Shown here piece by piece: positions 674-53,966 of a DNA stretch of 64,000 nucleotides. The notes beneath the pieces are model-generated. The model ran no database searches. It was not told the DNA's origin and was given only the letters and a program-made list of their open reading frames with translations. How positions within the stretch are numbered: position 1 is the stretch's first letter; each line of letters opens with the position of its first letter. The translations under genes and the position numbers were made by a program. Source of the DNA: Xenorhabdus mauleonii (GTDB lineage Bacteria > Pseudomonadota > Gammaproteobacteria > Enterobacterales > Enterobacteriaceae); assembly GCF_900113945.1 (NCBI RefSeq), contig NZ_FORG01000006.1, forward strand, positions 186,001-250,000. The letters are read 5' to 3'.

Positions 674-692
674 TTAAATGGAGGCAGAACCT

Positions 693-1097
693 ATGGGCAA
701 CAAGCTATTTTCTAAAGAACAATCCATTAAAAAACAAGTGGTCGTCGTTATTGGCGATCGATTGGGCAAAGGGCAAAACGTTGCCGCTGGCATTGAGGCC
801 GCTGGCGGCAAAGCGATTGTCATTCCGGGCATGGCTGCCGATATGAAACTGGGTGATGTCATGCACCAAGAACAAGCCGATATCGGCATCTCGTTTTGTG
901 GCAGCGGTGGTGCCGGCGCCATCACCGCGCAGAATAAATATGGTTATTCCGCCCGCCACGGCATGCGTTCCATTGAGGAAGGAGAAACCGCAATCCGTGA
1001 AAACTGTATTGTGCTCGGATTTGGTTTTATGGACAAAGCCGAGCTGGGGGAACGTCTTGTTCATGCCTTTATAAAAAAACGGAGCGAAACATCATGA
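693..1097 (+). CDS. Glycine-rich SFCGS family protein
   Basis: Family defined by the motif SFCGSGGAGAIT, seen near residue 70 (GISFCGSGGAGAI). The 134-residue soluble protein has an early hydrophobic strand (VVVVIGDRLGKG) and a glycine-rich centre that could bind a nucleotide or phosphate. Known only from conserved operons with DUF4310-4312 proteins and a DgaE-like lyase; the biochemical role is not established. Start 693 is preferred over an in-frame ATG at 678 because GGAGG (680-684) sits eight bases upstream of 693. The end overlaps the next gene in an ATGA junction, suggesting translational coupling. Confidence 0.85.
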   Translation: MGNKLFSKEQSIKKQVVVVIGDRLGKGQNVAAGIEAAGGKAIVIPGMAADMKLGDVMHQEQADIGISFCGSGGAGAITAQNKYGYSARHGMRSIEEGETAIRENCIVLGFGFMDKAELGERLVHAFIKKRSETS

Positions 1098-1552: not shown

Positions 1553-1567
1553 TAGGGAGGAAAAATC

Positions 1568-2359: not shown

Positions 2360-2361
2360 CC

Positions 2362-3012
2362 ATGAATAATGAATTGAAAAAACACGATTTTTGGTACGCC
2401 GAGTGGACGTTTCCCCTATTTGTCGGCCTGCTGTCTGCGGGGATCTTTGCCGGTACACATATGTACGTGGTGTATGGGTTTGGGGCATTTAATGAAGTGG
2501 CGTTCGTCGCAATGCTGCGTTCCGGCCTTGATACTGGTGTTTATGGCGCAGTTGCCGCATTCGGTGCCAGTTTTCTGTTTGCCCGCGTCGTTGAAGGCTC
2601 GCTGGTTGGGATCCTCGATATCGGGGGAGCGCTGCAAACTGGCGTTGGTTTGGGCATTCCTGCGTTACTGCTGGCGGGAGGCTTTGATTTTCTGGTTACG
2701 AATTTCTGGGCGTCGCTGCTCACGGGCATGCTGCTGGGGGTTGCCATTGGCCTGATTATTATTTTCGCCCGTAAATTCACGGTAGCACAGGGCAACTCCA
2801 CTTTCGGTGCCGATGTCATGATGGGAGCAGGAAACGCATCCGGCCGCTTCCTCGGCCCCCTCATCATTCTGGCCGCAATGACCGCATCCATCCCGATTGG
2901 CCTGGGTTCTCTGGCTGGCGCCCTGCTGTTTTATCTGTGGAAAAAGCCCGTAGCAGGCGGCGCAATTTTGGGAGCGATGGTACTCGGCTACTTTTTCCCT
3001 GTCGCAGCATAA
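2362..3012 (+). CDS. DUF4310 family membrane protein
   Basis: Membrane protein of 216 residues with five to six predicted segments and many Gly/Ala residues. It starts two bases after the DUF4311 stop, and the two are strictly paired in this operon family. Probable second subunit of a transporter-like complex at the cytoplasmic membrane. No catalytic motif is visible. Start is the first ATG; the ribosome site lies inside the end of the upstream gene (AGCGGGAAATAACC). Confidence 0.82.
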   Translation: MNNELKKHDFWYAEWTFPLFVGLLSAGIFAGTHMYVVYGFGAFNEVAFVAMLRSGLDTGVYGAVAAFGASFLFARVVEGSLVGILDIGGALQTGVGLGIPALLLAGGFDFLVTNFWASLLTGMLLGVAIGLIIIFARKFTVAQGNSTFGADVMMGAGNASGRFLGPLIILAAMTASIPIGLGSLAGALLFYLWKKPVAGGAILGAMVLGYFFPVAA

Positions 3013-3035
3013 CTCATATTAAGGGCAGGTATCTC

Positions 3036-4220
3036 ATGAATGACTTAATCATCAAGCAAGGCAAACTCATCAATGGGACTATCATCGATCTTGTCATCAA
3101 TGATGGAAAAATCACCGCCATTGGCCCTTTCGCAGCAACGGGCCTGAACGCTATCAAGGAAATTGACTTGCATGGGCATTATCATATCAGTGCCGGGTGG
3201 ATTGATGCCCACACCCATTGCTACCCACAATCCCCCCTCTATTTTGACGAACCAGATTTGATTGGTATAGCCAGTGGCGTTACCACGGTAGTAGATGCCG
3301 GCAGTGCCGGTGCTGACGATATCGACCATTTTTATGCGGTGTCACGTAAGGCCAAGACCCATGTTTATGCCTTTTTGAATATCGCCCGCACGGGTATCCG
3401 CAGCCAAAATGAACTGGCTGACATGAACAGCATTGACAATGAACAATTTCAGGATGCGGCCAGGCGGCACAAAGGCTTTGTCATCGGACTAAAAGCACGC
3501 ATGAGTAAAAGCGTCATTGGTGAAAATGGGCTTTTGCCCCTGCTCAAAGCCAAAATCATGCAGAAAACGAACGGATTGCCATTGATGGTGCATATTGGCA
3601 ATCCTCCCCCCAATCTGGAAGCCATGGTCGATCTGCTGACCAAGGGCGATATCATTACCCACTGTTTTAACGGCAAGCCCAACCGCATTCTTGACGGTAC
3701 CGGCAAGCTGAAACACGCAGTCCAAAAAGCGCTGGCGCGAGGCGTTATTCTGGATGTAGGTCATGGAACAGAGAGCCTCAGTTTTTCTGTTGCCGAGCAA
3801 GCCATCAAGTTCGGCGCCCATCCCCATATGATCAGCTCCGATATTTATCAAAGAAACCGGGTTGGCGGGCCAGTCTACAGCCTTGCCAGTGTGATGACGA
3901 AATTCCTCAACATGGGGCTGCCTGCTGAATACATTCTAAACTGTGTAACAATCAACGCGGCGAATTTGCTTCATCTGCCGCAGAAAGGACGATTGGAGCG
4001 GGGCTGCGACGCTGATATCACCATATTTGAACTAAAAGACCAACGTATCGAGCTTGTCGATGCTGAAGGGCAAGTCAGAATCGGCTCGCAACAATTTATC
4101 CCCATTGCGGCCATTGTCTCCGGAACGCATATCGCCGTGACCGAAAATACCGCAACAGTTGACCTGACCGTCAAAAATACAACTGCTGACAGGAGTGCAA
4201 TCAATGACCTCTCTCAATGA
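3036..4220 (+). CDS. Amidohydrolase/deacetylase family metallohydrolase (EF_0837/AHA_3915 type)
   Basis: Dihydroorotase-like TIM-barrel hydrolase of 394 residues. The metal motif HxH is at H59-T-H61 in IDAHTHC, and a late conserved Asp is in MISSDIYQ. A C-terminal beta segment (GCDADITIF) closes the small domain. It probably deacetylates or opens a cyclic amide of an amino-acid or amino-sugar substrate before the PLP enzyme encoded next. Start 3036 follows AGGGCAGG; the longer reading frame from 2937 would overlap the DUF4310 gene and lacks a site. Overlaps the next gene by 17 bases. Confidence 0.88.
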   Translation: MNDLIIKQGKLINGTIIDLVINDGKITAIGPFAATGLNAIKEIDLHGHYHISAGWIDAHTHCYPQSPLYFDEPDLIGIASGVTTVVDAGSAGADDIDHFYAVSRKAKTHVYAFLNIARTGIRSQNELADMNSIDNEQFQDAARRHKGFVIGLKARMSKSVIGENGLLPLLKAKIMQKTNGLPLMVHIGNPPPNLEAMVDLLTKGDIITHCFNGKPNRILDGTGKLKHAVQKALARGVILDVGHGTESLSFSVAEQAIKFGAHPHMISSDIYQRNRVGGPVYSLASVMTKFLNMGLPAEYILNCVTINAANLLHLPQKGRLERGCDADITIFELKDQRIELVDAEGQVRIGSQQFIPIAAIVSGTHIAVTENTATVDLTVKNTTADRSAINDLSQ

Positions 4221-5310
4221 AAAATACCAATTGCGCCAAGTGATCAATGCAGCCGGACGCCTGACCATATTGGGTGTTTCAACGCCTTCCGAGCCGGTTA
4301 TCAATCAAATCACGGAAGGGCTGAAACACTATTTTGAAATGGACGATTTGATAGAAAAAACCGGTGATCACATCGCCGGATTACTTGATACAGAAAGTGC
4401 CGTTGTTGTGTCTTGCGCCTCAGCAGGCATTGCCCAATCCGTTGCGGCAGTGATTTGCCAAGATAATGGCGAACGCCTGCTTAATCCCTATTCAGAAGCG
4501 TCAATTCCCCGTGAAATCATTCTGCCCAAGGGACATAACGTCAATTTTGGCGCACCTGTTGAAACCATGATTACATTGGGAGGCGGTAAAGTCGTTGAAG
4601 CGGGTTTTGCCAATGAATGCAGCGCCACACAAATTGCCAATAAAATCTCACAACAAACCGCAGCGATCCTCTATATCAAATCACACCATACCGTACAAAA
4701 AAGCATGCTGACGGTGGCGGAGGCGGCACACGTCGCACATGCACATAACTTACCCTTGATTGTGGATGCCGCTGCCGAAGAAGATTTAACCTTCTATTAT
4801 CAGCAAGGGGCTGACTTGGTCATCTACAGCGGGGCAAAGGCCATCGAAGGCCCTACCAGCGGGCTGGTGATTGGCAAACAACCTTATGTTGATTGGGTTA
4901 AGCGGCAGCGCTATGGGATCGGGCGTGCCATGAAGATCGGCAAAGAAGGCATTCTCGGCCTGACACTGGCTATCGAAAACTATCTTCAAAAAACGAAAGA
5001 AACAGGCGCTGAGATGGTTGCAAAAATGACGCCGTTCATTGAGAAATTGAACGGTATTGCGGGGGTTTCCGCCAAAGTCGTTTGGGACAGTGCAAACCGT
5101 GATATCGCCCGAACAGAAATTACTTTTGATGAACGGTTAATTGGCAAAAACACGTTCGATATTCTGGCACAACTCCGGCAAGGGACGATTGCCATCTACT
5201 TCCGGGAATATAAAGCGGATGAAGGCAAAATCGAAGTTGATATTCGCAGTGTGACATCTGCTCAACTTGATACCATTATTGTGGAAATTAAGCGCGTACT
5301 CAGTGTTTAG
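4204..5310 (+). CDS. dgaE: DgaE family PLP-dependent ammonia lyase
   Basis: PLP enzyme of 368 residues of the SelA/aspartate-aminotransferase fold. The Schiff-base lysine is K212 in YSGAKAIEGPTSG, and the Asp binding the pyridine nitrogen is in LIVDAAAEE. In Salmonella, DgaE dehydrates D-glucosaminate-6-phosphate to KDG-6-phosphate and ammonia. Start 4204 is fixed by AGGAG at 4191-4195. In related loci a KDGP aldolase (dgaF) follows, but none is present here, so the product would have to feed an aldolase encoded elsewhere. Family assignment is strong; the exact substrate is inferred. Confidence 0.83.
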   Translation: MTSLNEKYQLRQVINAAGRLTILGVSTPSEPVINQITEGLKHYFEMDDLIEKTGDHIAGLLDTESAVVVSCASAGIAQSVAAVICQDNGERLLNPYSEASIPREIILPKGHNVNFGAPVETMITLGGGKVVEAGFANECSATQIANKISQQTAAILYIKSHHTVQKSMLTVAEAAHVAHAHNLPLIVDAAAEEDLTFYYQQGADLVIYSGAKAIEGPTSGLVIGKQPYVDWVKRQRYGIGRAMKIGKEGILGLTLAIENYLQKTKETGAEMVAKMTPFIEKLNGIAGVSAKVVWDSANRDIARTEITFDERLIGKNTFDILAQLRQGTIAIYFREYKADEGKIEVDIRSVTSAQLDTIIVEIKRVLSV

Positions 5311-6003: not shown

Positions 6004-7005
6004 ATGAAAGCAATATCATTTATAGCTAATATTGATAACACGTTTAAAAACCCACTCATTGAAATTGAAAAAGCGCAGCCTAATTTGAAAGAACGTGATG
6101 TCCTTGTCAAAGTCCAGGCGATATCTGTCAATCCGGTAGACACTAAAGTGAGAAGAGGCGACATTCCATCCGATAAATTACGGATTTTGGGATGGGATGC
6201 GGTAGGTGAAATTGTTGAAGTCGGCGTTAACGTAGAACATTTTAAAGTCGGTGATCAGGTTTGGTACGCTGGAGATTTAACTCGAGATGGGAGCAATGCA
6301 GAATTTCAAGCTGTAGATGAAAGAATTATTAGCCTTAAACCTAAGACAATATCTAATGCGGAAGCGGCTGCATTACCTTTAACAGCGATAACAGCATGGG
6401 AAGTATTATTTGACCGTTTCAATATTTCCGCAGAGCAATCAGGTAATATTCTCATTATTGGCGGGGCTGGTGGTGTAGGCTCTATTGCCATTCAGCTACT
6501 AAAAGCAAAAACAAACCTTACTGTTATTGCAACTACGTCTAGAGAAGAAACGAAATCTTGGGTTGAATCACTGGGAGCGGATTACGTCATTGATCATACC
6601 AAAGATCTCAATGCGCAGATTCAATCATTACATCTGGAACAACCGAAATATGTATTTTCAACCAATCATACCGAAACCTACGTTAAGCAAATTGTCGAAC
6701 TGATTGCTCCTCAAGGAAAATTAAGTCTCATCGACGACCCAGCATTATTTGATATTATGCCATTTAAGAGAAAATCTATCTCTGTGCATTGGGAATCCAT
6801 GTTCACGCGTTCCATGTTTGAAACTGATGATATTGAAGCACAGAAAAATCTCCTGCAAGAAGTCGCACAACTTGTAGATGATAAAAAAATTAGAAGCACG
6901 TTGAATCAGAACCTAGGTAAAATCAATATTGAAAACTTACAGCATGCACATGAGCTGATTGAGTCTGGCAGATCAAAAGGGAAAATTGTTTTAGAAAATT
7001 TCTGA
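6004..7005 (+). CDS. Zinc-type alcohol dehydrogenase-like / quinone oxidoreductase family protein
   Basis: 333-residue medium-chain dehydrogenase/reductase. N-terminal GroES-like domain (WDAVGEIVEVGVNVEHFKVGDQV) and a Rossmann domain with GGAGGVGSIAIQLLKA at about residues 157-172 for NADPH. It lacks the structural-zinc cysteine cluster, so it resembles the ZADH/quinone oxidoreductases that reduce quinones or enals. Probably under the divergent HxlR regulator and induced by electrophiles. RBS AGAGGA precedes the ATG. Confidence 0.88.
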   Translation: MKAISFIANIDNTFKNPLIEIEKAQPNLKERDVLVKVQAISVNPVDTKVRRGDIPSDKLRILGWDAVGEIVEVGVNVEHFKVGDQVWYAGDLTRDGSNAEFQAVDERIISLKPKTISNAEAAALPLTAITAWEVLFDRFNISAEQSGNILIIGGAGGVGSIAIQLLKAKTNLTVIATTSREETKSWVESLGADYVIDHTKDLNAQIQSLHLEQPKYVFSTNHTETYVKQIVELIAPQGKLSLIDDPALFDIMPFKRKSISVHWESMFTRSMFETDDIEAQKNLLQEVAQLVDDKKIRSTLNQNLGKINIENLQHAHELIESGRSKGKIVLENF

Positions 7006-7641: not shown

Positions 7642-8583
7642 ATGACTCAATATACTGATTCTATTCTCGACTATAATTATGCTTGTTCTGTAGCCCAAGA
7701 TCCCTACTTCTACGATATTGGAGTTGAGTATTTTCGTGAGACTTTCAAAGCTAAGTTCGCACGGTTTCCAGTTCCCCCTAATCCGCATCTGAAAACAACG
7801 CTAGAATCCTTTGAGCGGGACGGGTGTGATATCCAAATAAAAATATACAAAAATGATACACGTCAGAAAAATTTAAATGGCGATACGTGCATTATATATG
7901 CTCATGGGGGAGGGTTTATCGGTGGTGGATTCGAACTTGTCGATGGCCTCTGCCAGGATTTCGTTTTTGATTTAGGGGTGACAGTCATCGCTGTAGACTA
8001 CCGCGGGGCACCTGAATTCAGACACCCTACTGGCCCATTAGATTTTATGGCCGGGGTTCAGCATGTCAGAATGCATGCTGAAAAATATGGAATAAATCCA
8101 AATAAGATTTTCCTTAGTGGTGAAAGTAGCGGCGGATGTATTGCTGTTGCCGTGCCCCTAATGCTTAGAGATAAAGGCCTCCTGCAAGTAGCAGGTGTTA
8201 TTTCAATTAACCCTGTATTAAATACCCATCGCTGGGCGAACCGGCAAGTTCATGATTGCTCAAAAGAATATCAGGATGAAATGTATTTTTTTACAAGTCA
8301 TTATTTAGGTGAGAACCAAGATGTATTTCCAGAGTATGCGTCACCACTTCTGATTGAGAATGTGGAAGGTATGCCACCAACTATCTTTTTTGCTGCAAAA
8401 TCTGATCCACTTTCTGTTGAAGCAGACCAAATGCATAAACGCTTAAAGGAAGTCGGTGCCGTTACCTATATTCATATTGATGAAATTGCCATTCACGGTT
8501 CAATCCGTGCTCGTTATTATTACCGTTTTGCACGTAGCGCCTATGATTCTTTGCTTGAAAATATTAAAAAGATCATAGGCTAA
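7642..8583 (+). CDS. Alpha/beta hydrolase of the hormone-sensitive-lipase family
   Basis: Esterase of 313 residues. The oxyanion motif is HGGGF at 88-92 and the nucleophile is S162 in GESSGG (family usual GDSAGG). A late Asp (AAKSDPLS) and His (IAIHGS) complete the triad. No signal peptide, so cytoplasmic. Start follows AGAGG at 7628-7632. Six bases separate it from the MFS transporter gene downstream, implying an operon. It may process or detoxify the compound handled by the transporter; the substrate is unknown. Confidence 0.88.
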   Translation: MTQYTDSILDYNYACSVAQDPYFYDIGVEYFRETFKAKFARFPVPPNPHLKTTLESFERDGCDIQIKIYKNDTRQKNLNGDTCIIYAHGGGFIGGGFELVDGLCQDFVFDLGVTVIAVDYRGAPEFRHPTGPLDFMAGVQHVRMHAEKYGINPNKIFLSGESSGGCIAVAVPLMLRDKGLLQVAGVISINPVLNTHRWANRQVHDCSKEYQDEMYFFTSHYLGENQDVFPEYASPLLIENVEGMPPTIFFAAKSDPLSVEADQMHKRLKEVGAVTYIHIDEIAIHGSIRARYYYRFARSAYDSLLENIKKIIG

Positions 8584-8589
8584 TGAACT

Positions 8590-9828
8590 ATGCACAGTGA
8601 AAACACAAACGTCATTATTCGGCGCCTCTCAAGCTCCAATTTGGCTGCTCAATTTAGCGAGCAAATGGCCATTTCAGCGATTCCAATACTTGCTGTCGTC
8701 GCTTTAGGTGTTTCAGCAGAACAATCGGCCTCATTGCAGGCCGTCAATACACTCCCTTTTCTGCTGCTGTCGATCCCTGCGGGTCTTCTTGCTGATAAAT
8801 ATCGACGAAAACATCTGATGATTGGTACTGAGATAATTCGGGCTTTAGCTCTGTTTTTACTGTTTTTTTTGTTCTATACCAAATCCCTCGGACTATATGA
8901 GTTGGCGGCTCTGAGCTTCGCGATTACTACCGGAACAGTTGTTTATAGTGTAGCAACACCGGCATTAGTCGCTGCAGTGGTTGATAAAGATCATTTACTG
9001 ACTGCGAATCGGAAACTTGAAATCGCCAGAAGTATTGCATTTACTGCCGGCCCATCAGTTGGTGGTGTTTTAGCTGGCTGGTCATCTGGAATATTTGCTT
9101 TTCTCGCTGCATTTATATTGTCTATGGTAAGTGTCTGGTATTTGTCCCGCTTGCCAAATGAAAAACGTCAGCCCCCTTCAGGTAGGCATGTAATGCAGGA
9201 ATTATCCGAAGGCGTACGTTTCATTGCCCATAATAGTTTCCTGCGTCCTATTGTGGCGACTGCCTTTATATTCAACACATCATGGTATCTGCTACTGGCT
9301 ATTTTCGCATATTACGCAATTAATAATCTGCACTTCAGTGCATCAGCGGTAGGCGGAACTCTTGGATTTTTTGGCGCAGGGATGGTTGTTGGCGCTTTTC
9401 TGTATCCATTCATTTCCCGATACATAAGTTTCGGCCGGCAAATTATGCTGGGGCCAATTTGTGCATTTTCGGCAGCGCTTTTAATGGTTGGAACGATGTT
9501 AGTACCGATTCATTTTATTGTATTCATTGCCTTTTTTCTTTTTGGTTTTGGCCCTATTGTTTGGACCATTTCGACAACATCGTTAAGACAGATTGTAACG
9601 CCCAGTGGACTGATTGCCCGGGTTTCATCTGTCATCATGACTGCAACATTTGGTGCACGTCCGCTAGGGGCAGCCTTAGGCGCTTGGATTAGTGCCACTT
9701 TTAGCGTCACAAGCTGCTTGATCGCAGTGGCCATTGGTTTTTCTATTCAATTGGGAATAATTGCCTTGTCAGCCCCATCCCGCCTTTCATCCATCGACGG
9801 CCTCGGACATAAAGAAATAGGTACCTAA
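8590..9828 (+). CDS. MFS transporter, EntS/MFS_3-like
   Basis: 412 residues with twelve predicted membrane helices. The cytoplasmic loop after helix 2 carries the MFS motif (GLLADKYRRKHLM). The overall pattern resembles the EntS-type drug or siderophore exporters. Its place between an esterase and DNA-alkylation genes, and close to the nitrosourea-type genes at 13-16 kb, makes export of a small toxic metabolite a reasonable guess, not shown by sequence. The ribosome site is weak; translation may be coupled to the esterase stop six bases upstream. Confidence 0.85.
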   Translation: MHSENTNVIIRRLSSSNLAAQFSEQMAISAIPILAVVALGVSAEQSASLQAVNTLPFLLLSIPAGLLADKYRRKHLMIGTEIIRALALFLLFFLFYTKSLGLYELAALSFAITTGTVVYSVATPALVAAVVDKDHLLTANRKLEIARSIAFTAGPSVGGVLAGWSSGIFAFLAAFILSMVSVWYLSRLPNEKRQPPSGRHVMQELSEGVRFIAHNSFLRPIVATAFIFNTSWYLLLAIFAYYAINNLHFSASAVGGTLGFFGAGMVVGAFLYPFISRYISFGRQIMLGPICAFSAALLMVGTMLVPIHFIVFIAFFLFGFGPIVWTISTTSLRQIVTPSGLIARVSSVIMTATFGARPLGAALGAWISATFSVTSCLIAVAIGFSIQLGIIALSAPSRLSSIDGLGHKEIGT

Positions 9829-9896
9829 ATATGAAGTTAACTCAGACACAACATTCGGCAAAAATCGCGTCTGAAACATCTGAAGAGAGGAATGCG

Positions 9897-10592
9897 ATGT
9901 CAGAACGGTATGACTGGTTAGCAATTGAAAACACGATTCAGCAATCTGGGTATGCCGTATTGGATTTACTTCTTGATAAAATTGATTGTGAACAGTTTGC
10001 AACATTGTTCAATAAAGATGAACTTTACCGAACTCGCATTCAAATGAACCGTCATGGATTTGGGCGTGGTGAGTATAAATACTTTACTTATCCCCTGCCT
10101 GAGAAGATACAGGCGCTGCGTCAGGAATTGTACGGTCCTTTGGCTGAGATAGCTAATCGATGGAATTTACAGTTAGGAAAGCCTGCTGTATATCCAGATA
10201 ACTTATCGCTTTTTCTTTCTCATTGTCATTCGGCAGGGCAAGTGAGACCAACCCCGCTAATTTTCAAGTACATGGAGGGGGATTATAATAACCTTCATCA
10301 AGATCTTTATGGAGAATTTGTATTTCCTCTTCAGATTGCGATTCTGCTATCCGTTCCTGGGGAAGATTTTACTGGTGGGGAGTTCATTGTGACTCAAAGT
10401 ATTGGGGCAGATTCACGGTCGGTTGATGTGGTCCCGCTAAAGCAGGGGGATGGTGTGATTTTTCCAGTCCATTCACGGCCAGTCCCTGGGAAACGTGGGC
10501 GCATGCGTCGTGCAGTCATGCGACATGGTGTTAGCAGGATTCGTTATGGGCAGCGACATACGCTGGGCCTCATTTTCCATGATTCACGATGA
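9897..10592 (+). CDS. 2OG-Fe(II) oxygenase
   Basis: 231 residues with a complete double-stranded beta-helix metal site: H134-Q-D136 in NNLHQDLYG, distal H210 and the 2-oxoglutarate-binding R220 in a segment reading HGVSRIRYGQR. Such oxygenases often neighbour ada in proteobacteria and are thought to act in alkylation damage or small-molecule hydroxylation; the substrate is unknown. I chose ATG 9897 because GAGAGG lies just upstream; an in-frame ATG at 9831 would add 22 residues. A degenerate paralogue lies at 12107. Confidence 0.8.
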   Translation: MSERYDWLAIENTIQQSGYAVLDLLLDKIDCEQFATLFNKDELYRTRIQMNRHGFGRGEYKYFTYPLPEKIQALRQELYGPLAEIANRWNLQLGKPAVYPDNLSLFLSHCHSAGQVRPTPLIFKYMEGDYNNLHQDLYGEFVFPLQIAILLSVPGEDFTGGEFIVTQSIGADSRSVDVVPLKQGDGVIFPVHSRPVPGKRGRMRRAVMRHGVSRIRYGQRHTLGLIFHDSR

Positions 10593-10604
10593 GGAACTTA
10601 TATG

Positions 10605-10673
10605 ATGAATCAGAATGATTTGTTTTCCGAGGATGCGACTGACAATGATGAGTTTATCAGTTCGCATGTCTAG
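10605..10673 (+). pseudogene. 22-codon ORF, possible AlkB N-terminal remnant
   Basis: ATG preceded by GAGG encodes a peptide beginning MNQNDLFSEDATDNDEFI and then stops. The acidic start with DLF resembles the first residues of AlkB proteins, after which the conserved barrel would follow but is missing. Directly abuts the AlkA-like fragment, so a deletion may have fused an alkB start to an alkA end. Low confidence because so little remains. Confidence 0.3.
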
Positions 10674-10676
10674 GCA

Positions 10677-10949
10677 ATGCAGCTTACAGACGATGGTTCA
10701 ATTAAATATTCAACTTCACTCCATGACATTAGCCGTTGGACTGTCGAGATGCTCTTAATCTATATGTTGAAACGAACCGATATTTTTTCTGCTGATGACT
10801 TTGGCATTCATGAAAGTTATCGGCGGCTTAAAGATATGGATAAATCCCCCACAGTAATCCAGATGCGTATCTTGGGACACATATAGAGCCCATAACGGAC
10901 AACTGCTTCCTGGTATTTGCGGCGAGTACCGGAGCGGAGAAGAAGCTAA
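10677..10949 (+). pseudogene. DNA-3-methyladenine glycosylase (AlkA-like) C-terminal remnant
   Basis: One frame reads RWTVEMLLIYMLKR, DDFGIHESYRRLKDMDKSPT and, after two in-frame stops (10884-10886 and 10893-10895), TTASWYLRRVPE. These are the C-terminal blocks of AlkA-type glycosylases (WTVEMLLIY, DDFGVREGYRRL, ASWYLWR). The helix-hairpin-helix and the N-terminal half are absent, so it cannot be functional. It shows this locus once carried a fuller alkylation-repair set beside ada. Confidence 0.72.
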
Positions 10950-11024
10950 CTGATAAAATCGTATTTTCAGTGAACAGATTTCTTTCTATATTGAACTTAA
11001 GCTCACGATAATTTGGAGGTTTAT

Positions 11025-12110
11025 ATGAGTGCCTCTCCATCGGACTATTCTACATTCGAAACAGATGATCAGCGCTGGCAAGCGGTGCGAACTCGGAATC
11101 GTATCGCAGATGACCATTTCGTGTATGCAGTCAAAACAACGGGGGTCTATGCCCGACCAAGTTCTGCGGCAAGACTTCCTAAACGAGAAAATGTGATGTT
11201 TTTCGATTCTCCACAGGAAGCTGAAGCAGCAGGTTATCGCCCAAGCCGCCATAATTCCGGAGATCGCAGCAGCGCGACGTCTCGTTGGACAGACGTTGTC
11301 ACTGCAGCATGTAGATTCATTGAAACATCGGATCCTCCACCAAACCTGGAAACGTTATCTAAGCATGCGGGTATGAGCCTGGCATATTTTCATAGGATCT
11401 TCAAATCGATTACGGGACTGACACCGAAAGCATATATTGCTGCATTACGAGTGCGCCGCCTACGAGAACAATTGGAAAATGAAAAGCAAACTGTAACAAA
11501 TGCAATTTATGAAGCAGGTTTCAATTCCAATAGCCGTTTTTATGAAATATCACATGCTCGACTTGGAATGAGGGCTAAAGATTACCGACGTGGAGGGCAA
11601 GGAACACGGATTCGTTTCGCAGTAGGTCAATGTTCCATGGGGGCTATACTGGTGGCTCAGAGCCAAAAAGGCATCTGTGCCATTCTCATGGGAGACGATC
11701 CGGAAGAGATTGTACGCGATCTGCAGGATCAATTCCCCTTGGCTAATTTGATAGGTGCAGATAGTGAGTTTGAGCAACTTATTGCCCAAGTTATCGGGTT
11801 TGTAGAGCAACCGACTATAGGATTAGATTTACCATTAGATGTTCAGGGTACAGCATTTCAAGAACGCGTCTGGCAGGCACTACGGGAAATTCCGCCTGGT
11901 ACAACAGCCAGCTATAGTGACATTGCTGAACGTATTGGGTCCCCGAAAGCTGTTCGTGCAGTTGCACGGGCATGTGCTGCCAACCATATTGCGGTAGCGA
12001 TTCCTTGCCATCGGGTTATACGTCATAACGGTGATATTTCTGGATATCGTTGGGGCGTAGAGCGTAAACAACAGCTCTTAAGTTGCGAACAGAATGGGAA
12101 GAAATCATGA
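11025..12110 (+). CDS. ada: Ada-type regulator/O6-methylguanine-DNA methyltransferase with altered zinc site
   Basis: 361 residues in Ada order: N-terminal Ada domain (about 13-78), AraC-type HTH (about 95-185), and C-terminal methyltransferase with acceptor C328 in IPCHRVIRHNG. In E. coli Ada, C38, C42, C69 and C72 bind zinc and C38 takes methyl groups from phosphotriesters. Here the matching positions are A43, S47, S74 and N77, although the surrounding sequence is conserved. O6-alkylguanine repair should work; phosphotriester sensing and methyl-switch activation should not. GGAGG (11015-11019) fixes the start. The end overlaps the next gene by ATGA. Confidence 0.9.
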   Translation: MSASPSDYSTFETDDQRWQAVRTRNRIADDHFVYAVKTTGVYARPSSAARLPKRENVMFFDSPQEAEAAGYRPSRHNSGDRSSATSRWTDVVTAACRFIETSDPPPNLETLSKHAGMSLAYFHRIFKSITGLTPKAYIAALRVRRLREQLENEKQTVTNAIYEAGFNSNSRFYEISHARLGMRAKDYRRGGQGTRIRFAVGQCSMGAILVAQSQKGICAILMGDDPEEIVRDLQDQFPLANLIGADSEFEQLIAQVIGFVEQPTIGLDLPLDVQGTAFQERVWQALREIPPGTTASYSDIAERIGSPKAVRAVARACAANHIAVAIPCHRVIRHNGDISGYRWGVERKQQLLSCEQNGKKS

Positions 12111-12823
12111 GCCAGTTAAATACTTTGTATAGTTATATAGAAAAACTGGATTGTGAATATATTGCAGAGCAGTTACAAAATGAGGGGTATATTATATTTT
12201 CTAATATGCTATCCCACCCATATTTTGAAGCTCTTCATGATAGTTTATATTCATCAATGGATTTAGCGTTATCTCCAAATAGTGAACTGGTTGATGTGCA
12301 AGGTGAACAGTCTTTTTTTAAAATACCTACAAGCGAAATTCTTACAGTCTGTCGAGATATGTTTTACCGCAAAATTATGCCAATTGCTAACCAATGGAAC
12401 GAGATTCTCGGTAAGGAGTTTCGTTTTCCAGATACTCCCCACGATTTTCAGAAACTAAACTATGAAATAGGCCAAAGGAAAGAATTATCTTGTTTAAATA
12501 TCCTGCGCAGAAAAAATTTAATTCCGCTAAAAAATAATGAAAGTACTACAATAACTTTTCCATTTAAATTGATTGGCCTTTTTTCCTCACCTGAAACGGA
12601 TTTTTCAGGAGGTGAGTTTGTTATGGTCGAACAACGTCCTCGCATGCAATCACGTCCAATTGTTGTCCCCTTAGAAAAGGGGGATGTTGCCCTTATTGCA
12701 TTATCAGATCGACCAGTAAAAGGAGCGCGAGGCTACTATCGCGCGAACCTGAAGCATGCCATTAGTCGGGTTCGTCGTGGGCAACGCATTGGATTAGAGG
12801 TATTTTTTCATCATGGAAAATAA
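12107..12823 (+). CDS. Degenerate 2OG-Fe(II) oxygenase paralogue
   Basis: 238 residues, clearly related to the oxygenase at 9897: shared SPxxDFSGGEFVM against VPGEDFTGGEFIV, DRPVKGARG, and a C-terminal HAISRVRRGQR. The metal triad is broken. Aligned on the common FP, the HQD of the paralogue becomes K142-N-N144, while distal H217 and R227 remain. Without the first two iron ligands it should not bind iron normally and may be a pseudoenzyme, a binding protein or a decaying copy. Translationally coupled to ada (ATGA). Confidence 0.75.
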   Translation: MSQLNTLYSYIEKLDCEYIAEQLQNEGYIIFSNMLSHPYFEALHDSLYSSMDLALSPNSELVDVQGEQSFFKIPTSEILTVCRDMFYRKIMPIANQWNEILGKEFRFPDTPHDFQKLNYEIGQRKELSCLNILRRKNLIPLKNNESTTITFPFKLIGLFSSPETDFSGGEFVMVEQRPRMQSRPIVVPLEKGDVALIALSDRPVKGARGYYRANLKHAISRVRRGQRIGLEVFFHHGK

Positions 12824-13088
12824 ATCAAATTCAAAATTAATATGGAAGCTAGTTGGGCTGAACGGTAAGATTTATCTAAGCGAAATCCCAGGAACTATTG
12901 GGGGAAACAAGCTAACACGTATTTATGGGATGCTTGATTGTCAGGTAGCAGTCCGGGCAATTGAACGAGGTGGATATGTGAATAATCGGATTTTTTTTCT
13001 AGATGAGAAAACTGCAATTGCAGCGGGTTACCGACCCTGTGCTGCCTGTATGCCAGAACAATATGCAATATGGAAACAAAAGAGTTAA
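12813..13088 (+). CDS. Stand-alone Ada-type metal-binding domain protein
   Basis: 91-residue protein consisting of little more than the Ada zinc domain: GGNKLTRIYGMLDC, then NRIFFLDEKTAIAAGYRPCAACMP. The spacing matches the FRPCKRC half of Ada, with three cysteines available (one in MLDC, two in CAAC). Such small proteins are annotated as metal-binding domain of Ada, without known function. It overlaps the upstream gene by 11 bases. Because the neighbouring Ada has lost its own zinc cysteines, this could supply that domain in trans; that is inference. Confidence 0.75.
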   Translation: MENKSNSKLIWKLVGLNGKIYLSEIPGTIGGNKLTRIYGMLDCQVAVRAIERGGYVNNRIFFLDEKTAIAAGYRPCAACMPEQYAIWKQKS

Positions 13089-13224: not shown

Positions 13225-13545
13225 TCAAATGCATACTTTTACAGGCCATGGTTCATCATGTTGGTTGGGCGCAACTAAAATAATAGTTTCATCTTTCGGA
13301 TAGTATATCAATGCAACTTCCGAACTGTAGCGGTCCGACGGATTTGGTCTGTCATGCCAAGGGCATCTTCGGATATTATTGCTATCTCTATAGCACAAAT
13401 GAAGTGGCCCACCTCGATGAGTGCATTTATCATTCAAAGCCTTAACACTTTTTTCATCTAGGTAAATAGCCACCCGATCGTTGGTAGATGTAAGGTCAAC
13501 AATAAGACTTTTTGCACCTTTTGTGCTAATTTTCTTTATTGCCAT
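13225..13545 (-). CDS. Rieske [2Fe-2S] ferredoxin-like protein
   Basis: 106 residues with both Rieske ligand pairs: C41-T-H43 and C61-P-W-H64, in a compact domain like those of NirD and dioxygenase ferredoxins. No transmembrane or oxygenase domain, so a soluble electron carrier. Its ATG overlaps the end of the diiron/cupin gene by ten bases, so the two are probably co-translated; I infer it donates electrons to that oxygenase. GGGGATG upstream of the start. AT-rich like its two partners. Confidence 0.87.
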   Translation of the reverse strand: MAIKKISTKGAKSLIVDLTSTNDRVAIYLDEKSVKALNDKCTHRGGPLHLCYRDSNNIRRCPWHDRPNPSDRYSSEVALIYYPKDETIILVAPNQHDEPWPVKVCI

Positions 13546-14963
13546 TTATTCACATCCCCTATAGTGTAAATCTGATATTTGCAATTTTCAGAGTGAATCA
13601 AAGCGCCATGTAGTCTGTTGTGCTCGATTATAATTCCATCCCCCGGGCCTAACATGGTTGATTTACCGAATCCATTAAGGAACTCCATTTGCCCTTCAAT
13701 CACGTGGCACAATTCATCTTTATCGTGACTGTGAGTGATTGATAGTTCACCTAGAGGTTCATCTAAATTGGCTAAAGGGATATCCCCATTATTTGCAGCA
13801 TTTTTTACGTCAGGCCAGATTTTTTTGTAGATATTTACATAATCTTCAGCACTGTCTTTCCATAAAGTTTGTTTCACAAAGTCGCTATCAGCAATATCAG
13901 AGATTAACCGGGCTTCTTCAAAGCCTCTGATAATTTCCCTTGCGGCATAATTGCCATATTTATCTATTGCTGGCATGACTAAATTTTCAAGTACCATTCT
14001 GCTGTGATCCACATCAATATGGTGATGTTCACTGAAATATTTAGTGTCTATTCCTGGTAATGCGGTTTCTAAGCATTTTTTCCAAATTTTACAACTTTGT
14101 ATGAACCCTGTTTCTGCTAAGTAAATAGCGCCAATATATTTGAAAAAATTATTTTTATTTCGAGTTATTGAATTGTAATAATTAGCTAATAATAAACTAC
14201 CATTTAAATAATATTGCCAGTATTTATGTGGTTCTGAACTTAACCCCACAGAATTTAATGTATTTTCAAATAAAGTTGAGTGTTTGGAATTATGGCATCC
14301 ATAGCCTAATTCATCAATAATGACTTTAAATAGAGATGAGGATAGTTGGCCGTAATTTCCTGGAGCATACCGTGCCATAGGGCTTGATTCAATGAGAAAA
14401 TCAGGACAAAGTTGAACTAAAAAATCTTTTGCCGCTAATTCTGGGTTTTTCGAATTAAGAATAACCTCAGAGGAAGGTAGTGTTTTTATTGTGCGAATAT
14501 CATTTTCAAATGAATAAAAATACTCTTTAACTTGGGCCTTACTCCAGTGTTCTGATATTTTAATATCATCATCAAGGAATGAAAATAAATATTTCTCAAG
14601 GTATGGCATTCCTATATATGCTTCGGCGGATTTTGTTGTATTGTATCGTTTCCCTAAAAGATCGATGTCCTCGCCAGAATTAGGTAACATTAAAAAATCT
14701 ACTTCATTCATTGCAAATAGTATTCTATTAGCAGCAAAGGCTGAATATTCATTGAGATTTTCTTTTTTGAGTGGGTTTTTGAAGTTTAGAAATTTAACTA
14801 CGTGAGGCCGTAGGCGTCGCCCCCAATATAGTTCCTCATAACGATGTTCATTATCGATAAATAGTGTATCATCGCAAAAGTTAAGAATAGCATCCCTGCA
14901 TAATTCATGGTTATTTGTACTAAAGTCGGCAATAACCTTTGTGTCTTTGATATCTGTTTTCAT
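13536..14963 (-). CDS. SznF-like diiron (HDO)/cupin N-nitrosating oxygenase
   Basis: 475 residues with SznF architecture: N-terminal dimerisation region (about 1-130), central heme-oxygenase-like diiron domain and C-terminal cupin. Candidate diiron ligands are E192, E218 (DELGYG), H228, E284, H313, D317 and H320 (EHHHIDVDH); the cupin triad is H411, H413 and H452. These occur in the same order and nearly the same spacing as the ligands I recall for SznF of Streptomyces. SznF hydroxylates N-omega-methyl-L-arginine and rearranges it to an N-nitrosourea. The gene lies four bases after a PRMT-like methyltransferase, as the pathway predicts. GGGG precedes the ATG. Product identity is inferred. Confidence 0.85.
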   Translation of the reverse strand: MKTDIKDTKVIADFSTNNHELCRDAILNFCDDTLFIDNEHRYEELYWGRRLRPHVVKFLNFKNPLKKENLNEYSAFAANRILFAMNEVDFLMLPNSGEDIDLLGKRYNTTKSAEAYIGMPYLEKYLFSFLDDDIKISEHWSKAQVKEYFYSFENDIRTIKTLPSSEVILNSKNPELAAKDFLVQLCPDFLIESSPMARYAPGNYGQLSSSLFKVIIDELGYGCHNSKHSTLFENTLNSVGLSSEPHKYWQYYLNGSLLLANYYNSITRNKNNFFKYIGAIYLAETGFIQSCKIWKKCLETALPGIDTKYFSEHHHIDVDHSRMVLENLVMPAIDKYGNYAAREIIRGFEEARLISDIADSDFVKQTLWKDSAEDYVNIYKKIWPDVKNAANNGDIPLANLDEPLGELSITHSHDKDELCHVIEGQMEFLNGFGKSTMLGPGDGIIIEHNRLHGALIHSENCKYQIYTIGDVNKWQ

Positions 14964-14966
14964 ATT

Positions 14967-15881
14967 CTACCCCTTCTCTGATACAATAGTTATTGAGCCA
15001 TTTTTGTTAATTTTCATTATGTATGTATTCCCAGCTTTAACATTTATTGGTTCTTGTAATGGATGGAACGCTTGGTGCCAATGCCCTTTATCCCTAAGAT
15101 CATTTGAAATAATCGATGGCCCCATTCGGGCCTGAAAATATGAAATTATACCGTGGCATATACCTGTTCGGTAGGCAATGAACTTTGATGACCTTATGCC
15201 ATGTTCGAGAGTAGTATATGTATATTCATTGATTTTCATACTTTCAGATAATGTTTTTACATTGAAATTGTTATATCTGATAGGAAAATATGTTGTTGTT
15301 GAGTGATCGTTAATATGAGTTAGTTTAATTCCATTAAAATTTCCTGATATTTTATTTTGGTTATAAATTTCTTCTGATTCAATCATAAAGCCATATTGTT
15401 TTATTATATCAGGAATTATTTTTGTGTTGGAACTTGCTATTGTGCGAATATCTTTTGCGACTGACCAAAATCCCTCGCCAACAATACCGCAGTCTAATGT
15501 TTCAGTGAATATGACATCAGGCGGTTCTTTCATAATGCCTGATTTTATTAGTTCACTGCTAGTCATGTGATATATTTTTATAATATTTTCAAAATTATTT
15601 TCTTTTATATTTTTCACTGCTACATGATAAAGTTGTTCATCCATTTCACACGTATAAACAACTTTAGCACCATGTTTTGCGAAATATATCGCAGTAAGGC
15701 CTGCTCCAGTACCTATTTCTAAAACAACTTTGTTATCAACACCATAATAAGTAATAGCTTCTTTTATTGCTTCATTTCTTAATTTATCATTCAACATAGA
15801 AAAATGCCATGTCGGAAATTTTCTTTCCATGATCATGGGTTGTATGCCAATCACATCACGTTTTTTATATAGTAGTACCAT
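14967..15881 (-). CDS. PRMT-like methyltransferase, probable SznE-type L-arginine N-methyltransferase
   Basis: 304 residues. SAM motif I is VLEIGTGAG (53-61) with acidic E79. The PRMT double-E loop is E127-x8-E136 in TETLDCGIVGEG, close to the PRMT7 form, and GHW (266-268) stands at the THW loop. A free-arginine methyltransferase of this class (SznE) makes N-omega-methyl-L-arginine for SznF, and the next gene is SznF-like. First gene of a three-gene operon; GAGG nine bases before the ATG. Five 19-bp repeats lie just upstream. It could instead methylate a protein, but the partner argues for free arginine. Confidence 0.82.
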   Translation of the reverse strand: MVLLYKKRDVIGIQPMIMERKFPTWHFSMLNDKLRNEAIKEAITYYGVDNKVVLEIGTGAGLTAIYFAKHGAKVVYTCEMDEQLYHVAVKNIKENNFENIIKIYHMTSSELIKSGIMKEPPDVIFTETLDCGIVGEGFWSVAKDIRTIASSNTKIIPDIIKQYGFMIESEEIYNQNKISGNFNGIKLTHINDHSTTTYFPIRYNNFNVKTLSESMKINEYTYTTLEHGIRSSKFIAYRTGICHGIISYFQARMGPSIISNDLRDKGHWHQAFHPLQEPINVKAGNTYIMKINKNGSITIVSEKG

Positions 15882-16262
15882 TTATGTTGTCCTCAATATA
15901 ATGATCAAGTAAGTATATTGTGACTATGGGGTTATATTGTGATTATGGATTTATATGGTGACTATGGGTTTATATGGTGACTATGGGTTTATATGGTGGC
16001 TCACAGAATATGATATATGTCCTATCATTCGTTGCAATATCTTGATGTTGCATGCTGCCGCTAGGAAGAGTTATGAGGAATACTTCCTATGAAGTTTACA
16101 CAGTGTTAGCCTCCTTTAAAAGGAATACGATATATATCGTTTCCATATTTATACATCCAGGTTTATTAAAAAAAAAGTTAAATATTTTCAGTGGTAATAA
16201 GAACTATAATTACTTTAATGTGTAATAGTTTTTATTTAAGCCACGAATTTCACCCGTAATGA
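15882..16262. other. Leader/promoter region of the nitrosourea-type operon
   Basis: AT-rich non-coding stretch upstream of the minus-strand operon. It holds the 19-bp repeats described separately and no credible ORF. Confidence 0.6.
15914..16003. repeat. 19-bp direct repeats upstream of the PRMT-like gene
   Basis: Four full units (15914, 15933, 15952, 15971) and a partial fifth (15990). Consensus tatatggtgactatgggtt; units three and four are identical and units one and two differ at two to four positions. They lie 33 bases upstream of the operon start codon. Spacing of 19 bases is just under two helical turns. Possible regulator-binding iterons or a slippage-prone array. Confidence 0.85.
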
Positions 16263-16605: not shown

Positions 16606-17544
16606 TTACGAAATACAACAACCGGAAGAACCGTGTTTTATATATTCATACTCACCGTCAAGAAATCCCGCCATTCTTGGCACTCTTACTTCAGGGCGAT
16701 ATAGCCCATTGATAATAAGGTTAAACTCATCATCACTGCGCGCTGAAAGGAGCTTTTTCCTATCGTGTTCATTACACAACTTACTGATGTCATTTAAGAT
16801 GTAATACAATAGCCCATTAATAGAATTATCAAAACCTGAAAAAGAACTGTCTCCTCTGCGTATCGTTCTGCCCTCAAGTTGTTTTCTTGATTCCGCACTA
16901 ATATTAAAATGATTGAACAACCTTTCTCTATTGGCACTCCCCTCCAAATATAAATAGGGGTTTAATTGATCAAATAACATCATAGAAGAATGCATAAGTG
17001 AAAATTTATTTCCAGAATATCTAATTCGGTAAAAATGGTGCCCAAACCTACTTTTGCATTTTTTAGGATTTCTGCCGACTTCAAGTGAAAACGACACAAA
17101 TCTATCATTTCCTAAGTAGGACAAATCTTTTTGGGTTGCGCCGCTATAATCACAAAATGTCATTTTTCTCTCCATGAGGGTAGCTCTTGAGAAAAGATTT
17201 AATGATTTTTTAGTACTATCTATCAGATTATTTTCGCTGGCATGAACAATATAAAATTCTTTTGACTTAAAAGCTTGTACAAAACCCTGCTGGTTTTCGT
17301 TAATAATACCTAATTCATTTCTTAAGTCTTGCGTTATCGTTCTCATATTCGAACGCAAATCTGGATAATTATCTCCATCTTTAAGTTTGTGGTAATCATA
17401 TATCGCGCCAAAATTATGATTATTAGCGGCATTGATCATTGTCTTGCGCATTTCATCAATCGCATTGTTTTCAAAGTGCCGGCGAATACTTCTTTTAATT
17501 ACGTTAGCAGCATTTATATTTTTTTCTGCATTCATGCTCTTCAT
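16606..17544 (-). CDS. Effector-like protein with C-terminal CaaX-type motif (paralogue 1)
   Basis: 312 residues, no signal peptide or membrane segment. Conserved blocks shared with the next gene are EFYIVHAS, GNDRFVSFSLEVGR, HFYRIRYS and RPEVRVP. The succession HAS... VSFSLEVG... PEVRVP faintly resembles ADP-ribosyltransferase-type toxins, but I do not see a firm triad. It ends CCIS after a GSSG linker, a sequence eukaryotic farnesyltransferase would accept, which the paralogue lacks. ATG 17544 has GAGG six bases upstream. AT-rich, next to an IS scar. Probably an injected host-directed effector; function unknown. Confidence 0.62.
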   Translation of the reverse strand: MKSMNAEKNINAANVIKRSIRRHFENNAIDEMRKTMINAANNHNFGAIYDYHKLKDGDNYPDLRSNMRTITQDLRNELGIINENQQGFVQAFKSKEFYIVHASENNLIDSTKKSLNLFSRATLMERKMTFCDYSGATQKDLSYLGNDRFVSFSLEVGRNPKKCKSRFGHHFYRIRYSGNKFSLMHSSMMLFDQLNPYLYLEGSANRERLFNHFNISAESRKQLEGRTIRRGDSSFSGFDNSINGLLYYILNDISKLCNEHDRKKLLSARSDDEFNLIINGLYRPEVRVPRMAGFLDGEYEYIKHGSSGCCIS

Positions 17545-17671
17545 AATCAACCTCATTACTTCTTATACATAAAGAAAAACAAAACTATAATTTAATTCCC
17601 TCCATACGCAAAGCGTTCTCATTTTTGTGAAAAATTAAAGAATAGATACAACCCGGAATAAAAACTCATAT

Positions 17672-18592
17672 TTAAATATTGCGTTCTATATATTCATACT
17701 CCCACTGAAAAAATCCTGCCACTATCGGAATCCTAACTTCAGGGCGATAAAACCCATTGATAATATTATTGAATTCTTCATCTGTACTGGCGGAAAGGAG
17801 TTTTTTCTTATCCTGTTCGTTTTTTAACTCACGAATATCAATAAGAAGAGAATACAAGAGTCCATTAATAGAATTAAAATATCCAGAAAAAGCACTGCCC
17901 CCATTCGTTCTGCGTAATATTGAAAGCTCAATTTGCTCTACTGAATCGGAACTAATACCAATTCTATCGATTATCCTTACGCTATGTTCCAACATATTTA
18001 AATGCTTACATTTATAGAGCTGATCATATAATACCATTGAGGAATAAACAAGTGAGTATTTATTAGCTGAATACCTAATGCGATAAAAATGATTTCCAAA
18101 ATTACTTCTCTTTTTTTTAGGTTCCCTGCCTACCTCAAGTGAAAAAAATACATATTTATCATTTCCTAAAAAAGTTGCATCGTCCTTAGAATTTGCCTCA
18201 TCAAACGGAATTTTCCTCTCCTGAAGACTAACCCTTGATAAAAGAGTTAATGATTTTTTAGCTCTATCTATAAGATTATAATCACTGGCATGGACAATAT
18301 AAAACTCTTTTGAATAAAAATTTCTTACAAAACCTAACTCATCTTCATTAAATGCACCTAGCTTATTTTTTAAGTCTTTTGCAATCGTTTTCATATTTGA
18401 GTGCAAGTCTGGATAATCACGTCCATCTTTAGTCTTATGAAAATCAAATAATTTTTTACTATGATGCCTTCTATGTCTATGGATCAGTGTGCTACTCATT
18501 CTATCAATTGCTTTATTTTCAAAGTACTGGCGCATACTTCTCTTAATAAGATTAGCAGCATTTATCCTTTTTTCTTCATTTATGTCTCTCAT
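17672..18592 (-). CDS. Effector-like protein (paralogue 2)
   Basis: 306 residues, about half identical by eye to the gene at 16606 along the whole length (EFYIVHAS, FSLEVGR, HFYRIRYS, RPEVRIP, EYEYI). It stops right after EYEYIERNI and lacks the GSSGCCIS tail. A tandem duplication with divergence is the simplest origin. Start 18592 is chosen because GAGG lies six bases upstream, exactly as in the paralogue. Probable cytosolic or injected effector; no function can be assigned. Confidence 0.62.
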   Translation of the reverse strand: MRDINEEKRINAANLIKRSMRQYFENKAIDRMSSTLIHRHRRHHSKKLFDFHKTKDGRDYPDLHSNMKTIAKDLKNKLGAFNEDELGFVRNFYSKEFYIVHASDYNLIDRAKKSLTLLSRVSLQERKIPFDEANSKDDATFLGNDKYVFFSLEVGREPKKKRSNFGNHFYRIRYSANKYSLVYSSMVLYDQLYKCKHLNMLEHSVRIIDRIGISSDSVEQIELSILRRTNGGSAFSGYFNSINGLLYSLLIDIRELKNEQDKKKLLSASTDEEFNNIINGFYRPEVRIPIVAGFFQWEYEYIERNI

Positions 18593-19010
18593 AATTAACC
18601 TCAACATTTCTTATATATAAAGACAAATAAAACCATATTGTGTTTTAAATTGATACTAATGCACAAAGCGGGCTGATATTTTCAAGGAAGAATATTGTAA
18701 GTATGGACACGGATACCAGAATCATAATCATAATCAGTAGCCATTAATACCACAAGTAATTAATACACTCTTCATAAATAAGTTTTGTGAATATAAATAT
18801 TCAATTGAATTCAATGTGATAGTACAAAGTGTGATCCAAAACTCAAACAATACATATTTTCATATTAAAAGGCGTGAAATCTGACTAGGATAAATTTGCT
18901 ATTATTTCAGTCTATCCATTATCTCATCACGAGCATAATCATTCTGTTAATCGCATTGTAGAGAGAAAATCCCATTATTTATCACTCCTGCCACACCAAG
19001 GAGAAAAGGC
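18593..19010. other. Divergent intergenic region before treB
   Basis: 418 AT-rich bases. No gene seen; treR, which lies upstream of treB in E. coli, is not here. It must carry the treB promoter, but no operator was convincingly recognised. Confidence 0.5.
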
Positions 19011-50243: not shown

Positions 50244-50244
50244 T

Positions 50245-52695: not shown

Positions 52696-52710
52696 TTGAG
52701 TGAAATTAAG

Positions 52711-53955: not shown

Positions 53956-53966
53956 GGTTGAAATCG

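Follow-up and report, generated by a model that had tools for sequence, protein, structure and literature searches.

A Probable szn-Type N-Nitrosourea Gene Cluster with an Adjoining Rieske Protein in Xenorhabdus

Does Xenorhabdus, a nematode-associated entomopathogen (PMC3220699), carry the genes for an N-nitrosourea? The question is raised by three minus-strand open reading frames (ORFs) at 13225-15881 of the window, by which we mean the whole 64-kb stretch analyzed here (positions 186001-250000 of contig C58 in the 5.12-Mb genome G000, Xenorhabdus mauleonii): a gene like those of protein arginine methyltransferases (PRMT), a sznF-like gene and a small Rieske gene (table 1). Our findings support a model where the locus is, with high probability, a szn-type N-nitrosourea gene cluster. 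The first-pass annotation had named a PRMT-like gene followed by a SznF-like one, and both are found where it placed them; three bases, rather than the four given there, part the PRMT stop codon from the start of sznF, the pair being adjacent as in szn-type clusters, and the third ORF of the range, the Rieske gene overlapping the 3' end of sznF, had been passed over. The GC content of the three biosynthetic genes is 0.34, compared with 0.42 for the window. N-nitrosoureas act as potent methylating agents; natural products with an N-nitroso group that have been isolated are very few, although published mining has listed 426 SznF homologues, with SznF and 135 others falling in szn-type clusters (PMC10849742). 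The kind of cluster is already known, the least expected parts here being the Rieske partner and an Ada protein without the methyl-sensing cysteine. Our literature search found no paper joining SznF with Xenorhabdus.

That the 475-residue protein is a SznF-type N-nitrosourea synthase is supported, as a prediction, by homology and by a full set of metal ligands. Searched against solved structures with phmmer, it matches SznF (6m9r, 41% identity, E 6e-110) over residues 19-473, which takes in the N-terminal domain and the full-length architecture; below the SznF entries the next match is weak (RohS, E 0.0035), and Pfam recognizes Haem_oxygenas_2 (E 2.1e-22) and Cupin_2 (E 2.5e-06) domains. Because of this score, and that of the neighboring PRMT against PRMT7 (E 1e-28), the likeness is not due to chance. 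Aligned to the crystallized SznF chain, the seven candidate diiron ligands of the first-pass annotation, E192, E218, H228, E284, H313, D317, and H320, each coincide with a residue of like function (E189, E215, H225, E281, H311, D315, and H318, respectively), as do the three cupin histidines H411, H413, and H452 (H407, H409, and H448), to which we add Y463 (Y459). The essential SznF residues are listed in PMC11705231, and E189 enters as the seventh diiron ligand through the 3H/4C description in PMC13108848. All 11 residues occur in 22 of the 27 aligned rows; the exceptions are three partial rows (L043, one piece of L026, and L047) and two copies in L046 with an altered cupin. In this last locus (Actinomadura sp. 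DC4, 8549-13015) a Rieske and a PRMT gene stand between the two sznF copies, both of which keep their diiron ligands, the cupin ligands reading R,H,Y in one and R,Y,H in the other, so that these copies may hydroxylate without rearrangement.

The second component, the PRMT-like protein, has as its best solved relative PRMT7 (4m36), a mono-methylating enzyme, with a bit score of 104 in contrast to 110-327 against the PRMTs of sznF clusters. Its identity reaches 51% to the Halomonas PRMT and 29% to the PRMT beside a SznF that is 93% identical to the crystallized one. The double-E loop (E127, E136) and the HW pair (H267, W268) at the THW site, both highlighted from the start, are kept in 22 of 22 cluster PRMTs, with position 266 being S in 16, G in 5, and T in 1. 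PRMT and SznF also co-vary. Genome contigs searched for SznF with an alignment of four sequences gave 22 loci, 20 of them with a PRMT; the exceptions are L043 and L030 (Xenorhabdus bovienii T228), the latter starting at a contig edge adjoining sznF. Across 21 clusters, with L026, L046, L030, L043, and L047 omitted, SznF and PRMT distances correlate (Mantel r 0.93, matched by 0 of 2000 permutations), and they do so within the seven proteobacterial clusters (r 0.91, 6 of 2000 permutations). Free L-arginine is the predicted substrate of the Xenorhabdus enzyme, a specificity which we infer because identity to the nearest SznE proxy is only 29%.

The Rieske protein is apparently as much a part of the set. 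It adjoins SznF in 21 of the 22 genome loci (L047, which ends inside sznF, is without it) and in four of the five plasmid loci that we opened, no Rieske gene being annotated in the fifth, a 9-kb Tistrella stretch. All 23 Rieske proteins compared from the clusters, a set without L030 and L043, have the C-x-H...C-x2-H motif, and the gene stands beside sznF even in loci in which no PRMT was detected (Gloeothece and Azospirillum). We propose that this protein is the electron donor for the SznF diiron site, since two hydroxylations need electrons, since it is as constant as the PRMT in genome loci and present even where the PRMT is not, and since the Methylobacterium cluster contains a MOSC/FAD/NAD/2Fe-2S reductase. 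A link between SznF and a Rieske protein was not found in our literature search, which did not cover the founding paper (Ng 2019); in the sole paper returned with both terms, one of two mentions of Rieske concerns a Rieske dioxygenase.

How might these proteins act together? The PRMT-like enzyme would transfer one methyl group onto the guanidine of free L-arginine; the SznF diiron domain would then carry out two hydroxylations of guanidine nitrogens, with electrons passing via the adjoining Rieske protein, and the cupin domain would convert the dihydroxy compound into an N-methyl-N-nitrosourea of the N-delta-hydroxy-N-omega-methyl-N-omega-nitroso-citrulline type (for the hydroxylation and cupin rearrangement by SznF, see PMC13108848 and PMC11705231). 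Export would fall to the MFS protein encoded nearby, and breakdown of the nitrosourea would release nitric oxide and/or a methylating species. N-methyl-N-nitrosoureas do break down to methylating species, and self-inflicted methylation would be mended by the Ada-type protein, acting on O6-methylguanine, and by the intact Oxygenase-NA, taken as AlkB-like. We infer every catalytic step, as well as the electron flow, the export, and any use against insects or competitors. As for the final product, streptozotocin itself is not supported, because the ATP-grasp ligase is missing from the window: tblastn gave no match in the 64 kb at E 0.05, and the ligase is present in 18 of 25 sznF loci, several of the other seven being cut by contig ends. 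The same absence suggests a product without the tailoring of the ATP-grasp-bearing relatives. Elsewhere in the genome there are two weak matches, on C72 (25%, E 5.5e-13) and C45 (E 5.4e-5); the former was rejected as a partner of the cluster, given its 25% identity and NRPS-like (nonribosomal peptide synthetase) surroundings. This relative lies at 98000-114000 of C72 (L077), beside ORFs that, judged by eye from their first residues, are NRPS-like, aminotransferase-like, and transporter-like, perhaps a separate natural-product cluster.

Plus-strand genes converge on the three szn genes, in the order hydrolase, MFS exporter, Oxygenase-NA, Ada, second Oxygenase-NA, and Ada-domain protein (table 1), and it is the repair genes among them that provide the strongest evidence on what the product does. 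Across the 21 sznF-bearing genomes (158.4 Mb, with 21 copies of PF09859 and 103 of PF01035, the MGMT/Ada family), Oxygenase-NA occurs at the sznF locus in 10 against 0.061 expected and Ada/MGMT in 16 against 0.275 expected; these figures count the window, take totals from Pfam models and near-sznF counts from phmmer with the window proteins, exclude L028, L043, and L047, and are uncorrected for relatedness. In 14 control genomes a single one had a PF09859 match, and several other Streptomyces genomes carry Oxygenase-NA away from sznF, for example 63 kb off in that of L035. Within the genus, Oxygenase-NA occurs in this genome alone (twice), being absent from the other 29 searched save for a relic in G011, a broken piece between Ada and AlkB. 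Alkylation by streptozotocin is reported to be reversed directly by homologues of AlkB and AGT (PMC9040887, citing Ng 2019). Because repair genes stand at sznF above chance and such homologues are reported to undo streptozotocin damage, the set points to a product that methylates DNA, and Ada and Oxygenase-NA probably shield the producer. The set is composed of the same protein families as the Ada-AlkB adaptive-response operon, yet we rejected the idea that it is simply the Ada operon native to the genus: the genome has another Ada with an AlkB-type gene behind it at a different place (C58:31968), and the other genus genomes searched have no Oxygenase-NA apart from that relic. Unlike the operon, the window Ada sits with nitrosourea genes, has none of the four zinc cysteines, and precedes Oxygenase-NA.

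The window Ada keeps the PCHR active-site cysteine and shows A, S, S, and N at the four zinc-cysteine columns, the first of which we take to be the methyl acceptor in E. coli Ada. Among full-length Adas (the short Ada L068 and small Streptomyces MGMT proteins set aside), that first cysteine is lost in five of six beside sznF versus none of six unlinked Xenorhabdus Adas; the sznF-linked Methylobacterium Ada retains all four. The link between this loss and the sznF neighborhood is suggestive at most, because four of the six unlinked Adas have also lost three of the four cysteines. In the second Oxygenase-NA the iron-motif columns read KNHR, compared with HDHR in all 12 remaining rows of the 13 aligned, among them the first window copy, and the second copy is thus probably without a normal iron site. 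For the family, Pfam describes PF09859 as an 'Oxygenase, catalysing oxidative methylation of damaged DNA'; a literature search on PF09859/Oxygenase-NA found nothing on it. The 91-residue Ada-domain protein has tblastn matches at the SznF loci L044, L026, and L027 and weaker ones at others. Homologues of the alpha/beta hydrolase stand at the SznF locus in 13 of 21 genomes, window included, and exporters related to the MFS protein occur in L031, L044, L048, and L079, weak evidence of cluster membership since the MFS family is large. A tblastn search of the window with the AlkA of the Methylobacterium cluster found nothing at E 0.05. A possible regulatory role may be considered for the 19-bp repeat preceding the PRMT gene.

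Table 1. Features of the Putative Nitrosourea Locus and Its Surroundings, in Window Coordinates
Feature	Position	Strand	Evidence
Alpha/beta hydrolase, HSL type, GESSG motif	7642..8583	+	PF07859 E 5e-43
MFS exporter, putative product efflux	8590..9828	+	PF05977/PF07690
First Oxygenase-NA, 2-oxoglutarate/Fe dioxygenase-like, HxD...H...R intact	9831..10592	+	PF09859 E 3.8e-72; HDHR columns
Short frame (69 aa), faint HhH-GPD (AlkA-like) glycosylase likeness, uncertain	10677..10886	+	PF00730 E 0.045, 14.5 bits vs cut-off 26.2
Ada-type O6-methylguanine-DNA methyltransferase/AraC regulator	11013..12110	+	NF011964 439 bits, cut-off 345
Second Oxygenase-NA, HxD replaced by K and N	12083..12823	+	PF09859 E 3.8e-52
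Stand-alone Ada metal-binding-domain protein (91 aa)	12813..13088	+	PF02805 E 9.2e-07
Small Rieske [2Fe-2S] protein (106 aa; C41-x-H43, C61-x2-H64), putative SznF electron donor	13225..13545	-	PF00355 E 1.2e-06
Predicted N-nitrosourea synthase, SznF homologue of 475 aa with N-terminal, HDO diiron and C-terminal cupin domains	13536..14963	-	phmmer, Pfam, ligand mapping
PRMT-like methyltransferase, SznE-type (304 aa); predicted N-omega-methyl-L-arginine maker	14967..15881	-	phmmer, cluster-PRMT identity, motifs
Direct repeat, 19 bp x 4.5 copies, just upstream of PRMT gene	15914-15998	.	Tandem Repeats Finder score 135

The streptozotocin cluster of Streptomyces achromogenes (szn/stz), compared here via the proxies L040 and L041 (SznF 93% and 92% identical), likewise pairs a methyltransferase (SznE/StzE) with an HDO-cupin enzyme (SznF/StzF) retaining all metal ligands. 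Self-resistance through AGT and AlkB homologues is reported there (PMC9040887), to which the Ada and Oxygenase-NA of Xenorhabdus would correspond if Oxygenase-NA is AlkB-like; Xenorhabdus differs in its SznF (41% identity), a full-length Ada, a gammaproteobacterial host, and in that no ATP-grasp was found, nor any glycosylation gene recognized, in the window. Closer in content are the clusters of Halomonas/Vreelandella (L026, L027) and of the Methylobacterium indicum plasmid pVL1_1 (L078), which hold in common with the window a SznF (62-64% identical), a PRMT (47-51%), the Rieske protein, the alpha/beta hydrolase, Ada, and Oxygenase-NA. Unlike the window, they add an ATP-grasp, an M20 hydrolase, and a pyridoxal phosphate (PLP) enzyme; in addition, L027 has an AlkB-type 2-oxoglutarate oxygenase, and Methylobacterium an AlkA, a MOSC/ferredoxin-type reductase, and an Ada with four zinc cysteines.

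SznF matches were obtained in 2 of 30 genomes of the genus and 18 of 392 of the family, three of the latter (the window, G004, and G115) over most of the protein and the other 15 partial and weak, and no full-length match besides the window was found among 369 genomes of the class. PRMT matches occur in 13 of the 30 genus genomes; besides the window the only specific one, in G020, spans 75 residues and is interrupted by a stop (E 1.4e-19), whereas the remainder are short and match methyltransferases in general (E 6e-8 or weaker). The SznF tree places the window with X. bovienii, Vreelandella, Rhodobacter, and Silicimonas (support 100/99), with several long branches; it omits L026, L043, L047, and the duplicate L049, and the over-long L032 and L034 were trimmed to their last 470 residues. 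In the PRMT tree the window falls with Halomonas, Vreelandella, and alphaproteobacterial PRMTs (100/100). Eight plasmid records match SznF, five with at least 80% query coverage, and five were opened: pVL1_1, typed conjugative, carries the whole gene set; the Pantoea dispersa plasmid has the order Ada-SznF-Rieske-PRMT-MFS-ATP-grasp; those of Gloeothece and Azospirillum pair SznF with Rieske but gave no PRMT within about 13 kb; and that of Tistrella is a graminine-type locus. A treB-like gene is present in all 30 genus genomes, and the 14-15 kb upstream of it in six of them gave no szn or repair gene match at E 1e-8. An operon matching window 269-5310 lies about 5 kb (G007) and 8.5 kb (G019) from treB, versus 13.7 kb in the window. 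Because the six genomes have no such genes near treB and these distances differ, the szn block occupies a variable site. Two minus-strand paralogues at 16606-17556 and 17672-18607 (57% identical, without a Pfam match over cut-off) were rejected as cluster members, since G019, which has no szn gene at this variable site, carries a homologue there; an alcohol dehydrogenase at 6004-7005 was left out, other sznF loci giving no convincing match and a single weak one (L042).

Could the locus serve another purpose? It might chiefly make nitric oxide, the nitrosourea being a donor acting on the insect host, or a signal, with methylation incidental. In fact, non-enzymatic degradation of the SznF product sets nitric oxide free (PMC11705231), and the lack of an ATP-grasp conjugating enzyme in the window fits this; yet methylation-repair genes at sznF loci suit a methylating product rather than a nitric oxide donor, and no nitric oxide-detoxifying gene was recognized among the annotated ORFs, no search having been aimed at such genes, so that we regard this as unlikely. 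Alternatively, the operon may be decaying and its product no longer made in the strain. The second Oxygenase-NA without HxD, the possible glycosylase fragment, a stop in the N-terminal part of the X. bovienii sznF at the contig edge, and the relics in G020 (PRMT) and G011 (Oxygenase-NA) all agree with decay; nevertheless, the PRMT, SznF, and Rieske frames are open, their motif residues intact, and purine-rich stretches, judged by eye, precede their starts, and we consider the loss of production in this strain rather improbable.

Far less room is left for two other explanations. An ordinary protein-arginine PRMT, either adjacent to sznF by accident or supplying a methylated protein on which SznF acts, would agree with protein PRMTs being the best solved relatives, but it is very hard to reconcile with the 20 of 22 genome loci in which the two genes lie near each other, with the correlated distances, and with a genus whose one specific PRMT match outside the window is the interrupted G020 piece. 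Even less credible is a diazeniumdiolate (graminine) ligand for a metallophore, suggested by the SznF homologues GrbD and MobE, implicated in graminine formation in NRPS clusters (PMC10849742, PMC10391617). The Tistrella mobilis plasmid NC_017966.1 holds the tistrellabactin cluster with mobE in an NRPS context (PMC10391617), and its protein (L088) is 23% identical to the window SznF, which is 41% identical to SznF itself. In a comparison tree of 16 chosen rows, with GrbD outside the alignment, MobE has the cupin HHH and tyrosine in common with the window SznF; its diiron columns, however, read R, A, D, E, A, gap, H in contrast to E, E, H, E, H, D, H. This loss agrees with the report that NRPS- and PKS-associated (polyketide synthase) homologues are without many diiron ligands (PMC10849742). 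Since the MobE diiron site is lost and that of the window complete, and given the PRMT neighbor and that none of the annotated ORFs surrounding sznF is an NRPS gene, we rejected the metallophore explanation.

Some observations nonetheless weigh against a szn-type cluster making a DNA-methylating nitrosourea. Besides the modest PRMT identity to the SznE proxy, tblastn found no counterpart in the window of the ATP-grasp, LysE, and M20 genes that sister clusters have. In L048 (G115, another genus of the family) the two trees disagree, SznF grouping weakly with the proteobacterial set (82/77) and PRMT with the actinobacterial one (100/100), long branches being flagged. Repair genes are not universal at sznF loci, because L028 and L029 have neither an Ada nor an Oxygenase-NA match (11 and 15 kb available). 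Of the AGT and AlkB types that mark szn-type self-resistance, Ada and Oxygenase-NA are present, one Oxygenase-NA being degenerate, and AlkB-like action is attributed to this family from the Pfam description and the iron motif. Because the HxD pair is gone from the second Oxygenase-NA and the zinc site from Ada, the resistance set is partly decayed or repurposed. Even so, at the level of sequence the SznE/SznF interpretation of the first-pass annotation holds, through homology, ligand mapping, an intact diiron site, pair co-variation, and the repair-gene neighborhood. More tentatively, and as less likely than not, we suggest a mobile PRMT-SznF-Rieske genotoxin module through which this insect pathogen would release an N-methyl-N-nitrosourea that is amino-acid-like and unconjugated; the Rieske protein would be the dedicated electron donor of SznF, and a producer-specific Ada, its methyl sensor lost, would repair O6-methylguanine without being switched on by the cell's own product.

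Other genes of the window deserve mention. At 49101-54896 a LuxE-like protein, a LuxC/AMP-binding fusion, a weakly AMP-binding-like protein, and a GNAT protein follow in series, in what looks like an acyl-reductase operon. An S-type pyocin-like protein (PF06958) is encoded at 29325-31190, and at 25394-27178 a PLP amino-acid decarboxylase-type domain is followed by a GNAT domain in one protein.

Genetic tools exist for Xenorhabdus (PMC10983751), and with a cluster in this genus the product, its role in infection, and the self-protection of the producer would be testable by deletion. The Rieske partner allows a direct test of electron supply to the diiron site, and the Ada variants would illustrate the rewiring of a DNA-repair sensor in a producer.

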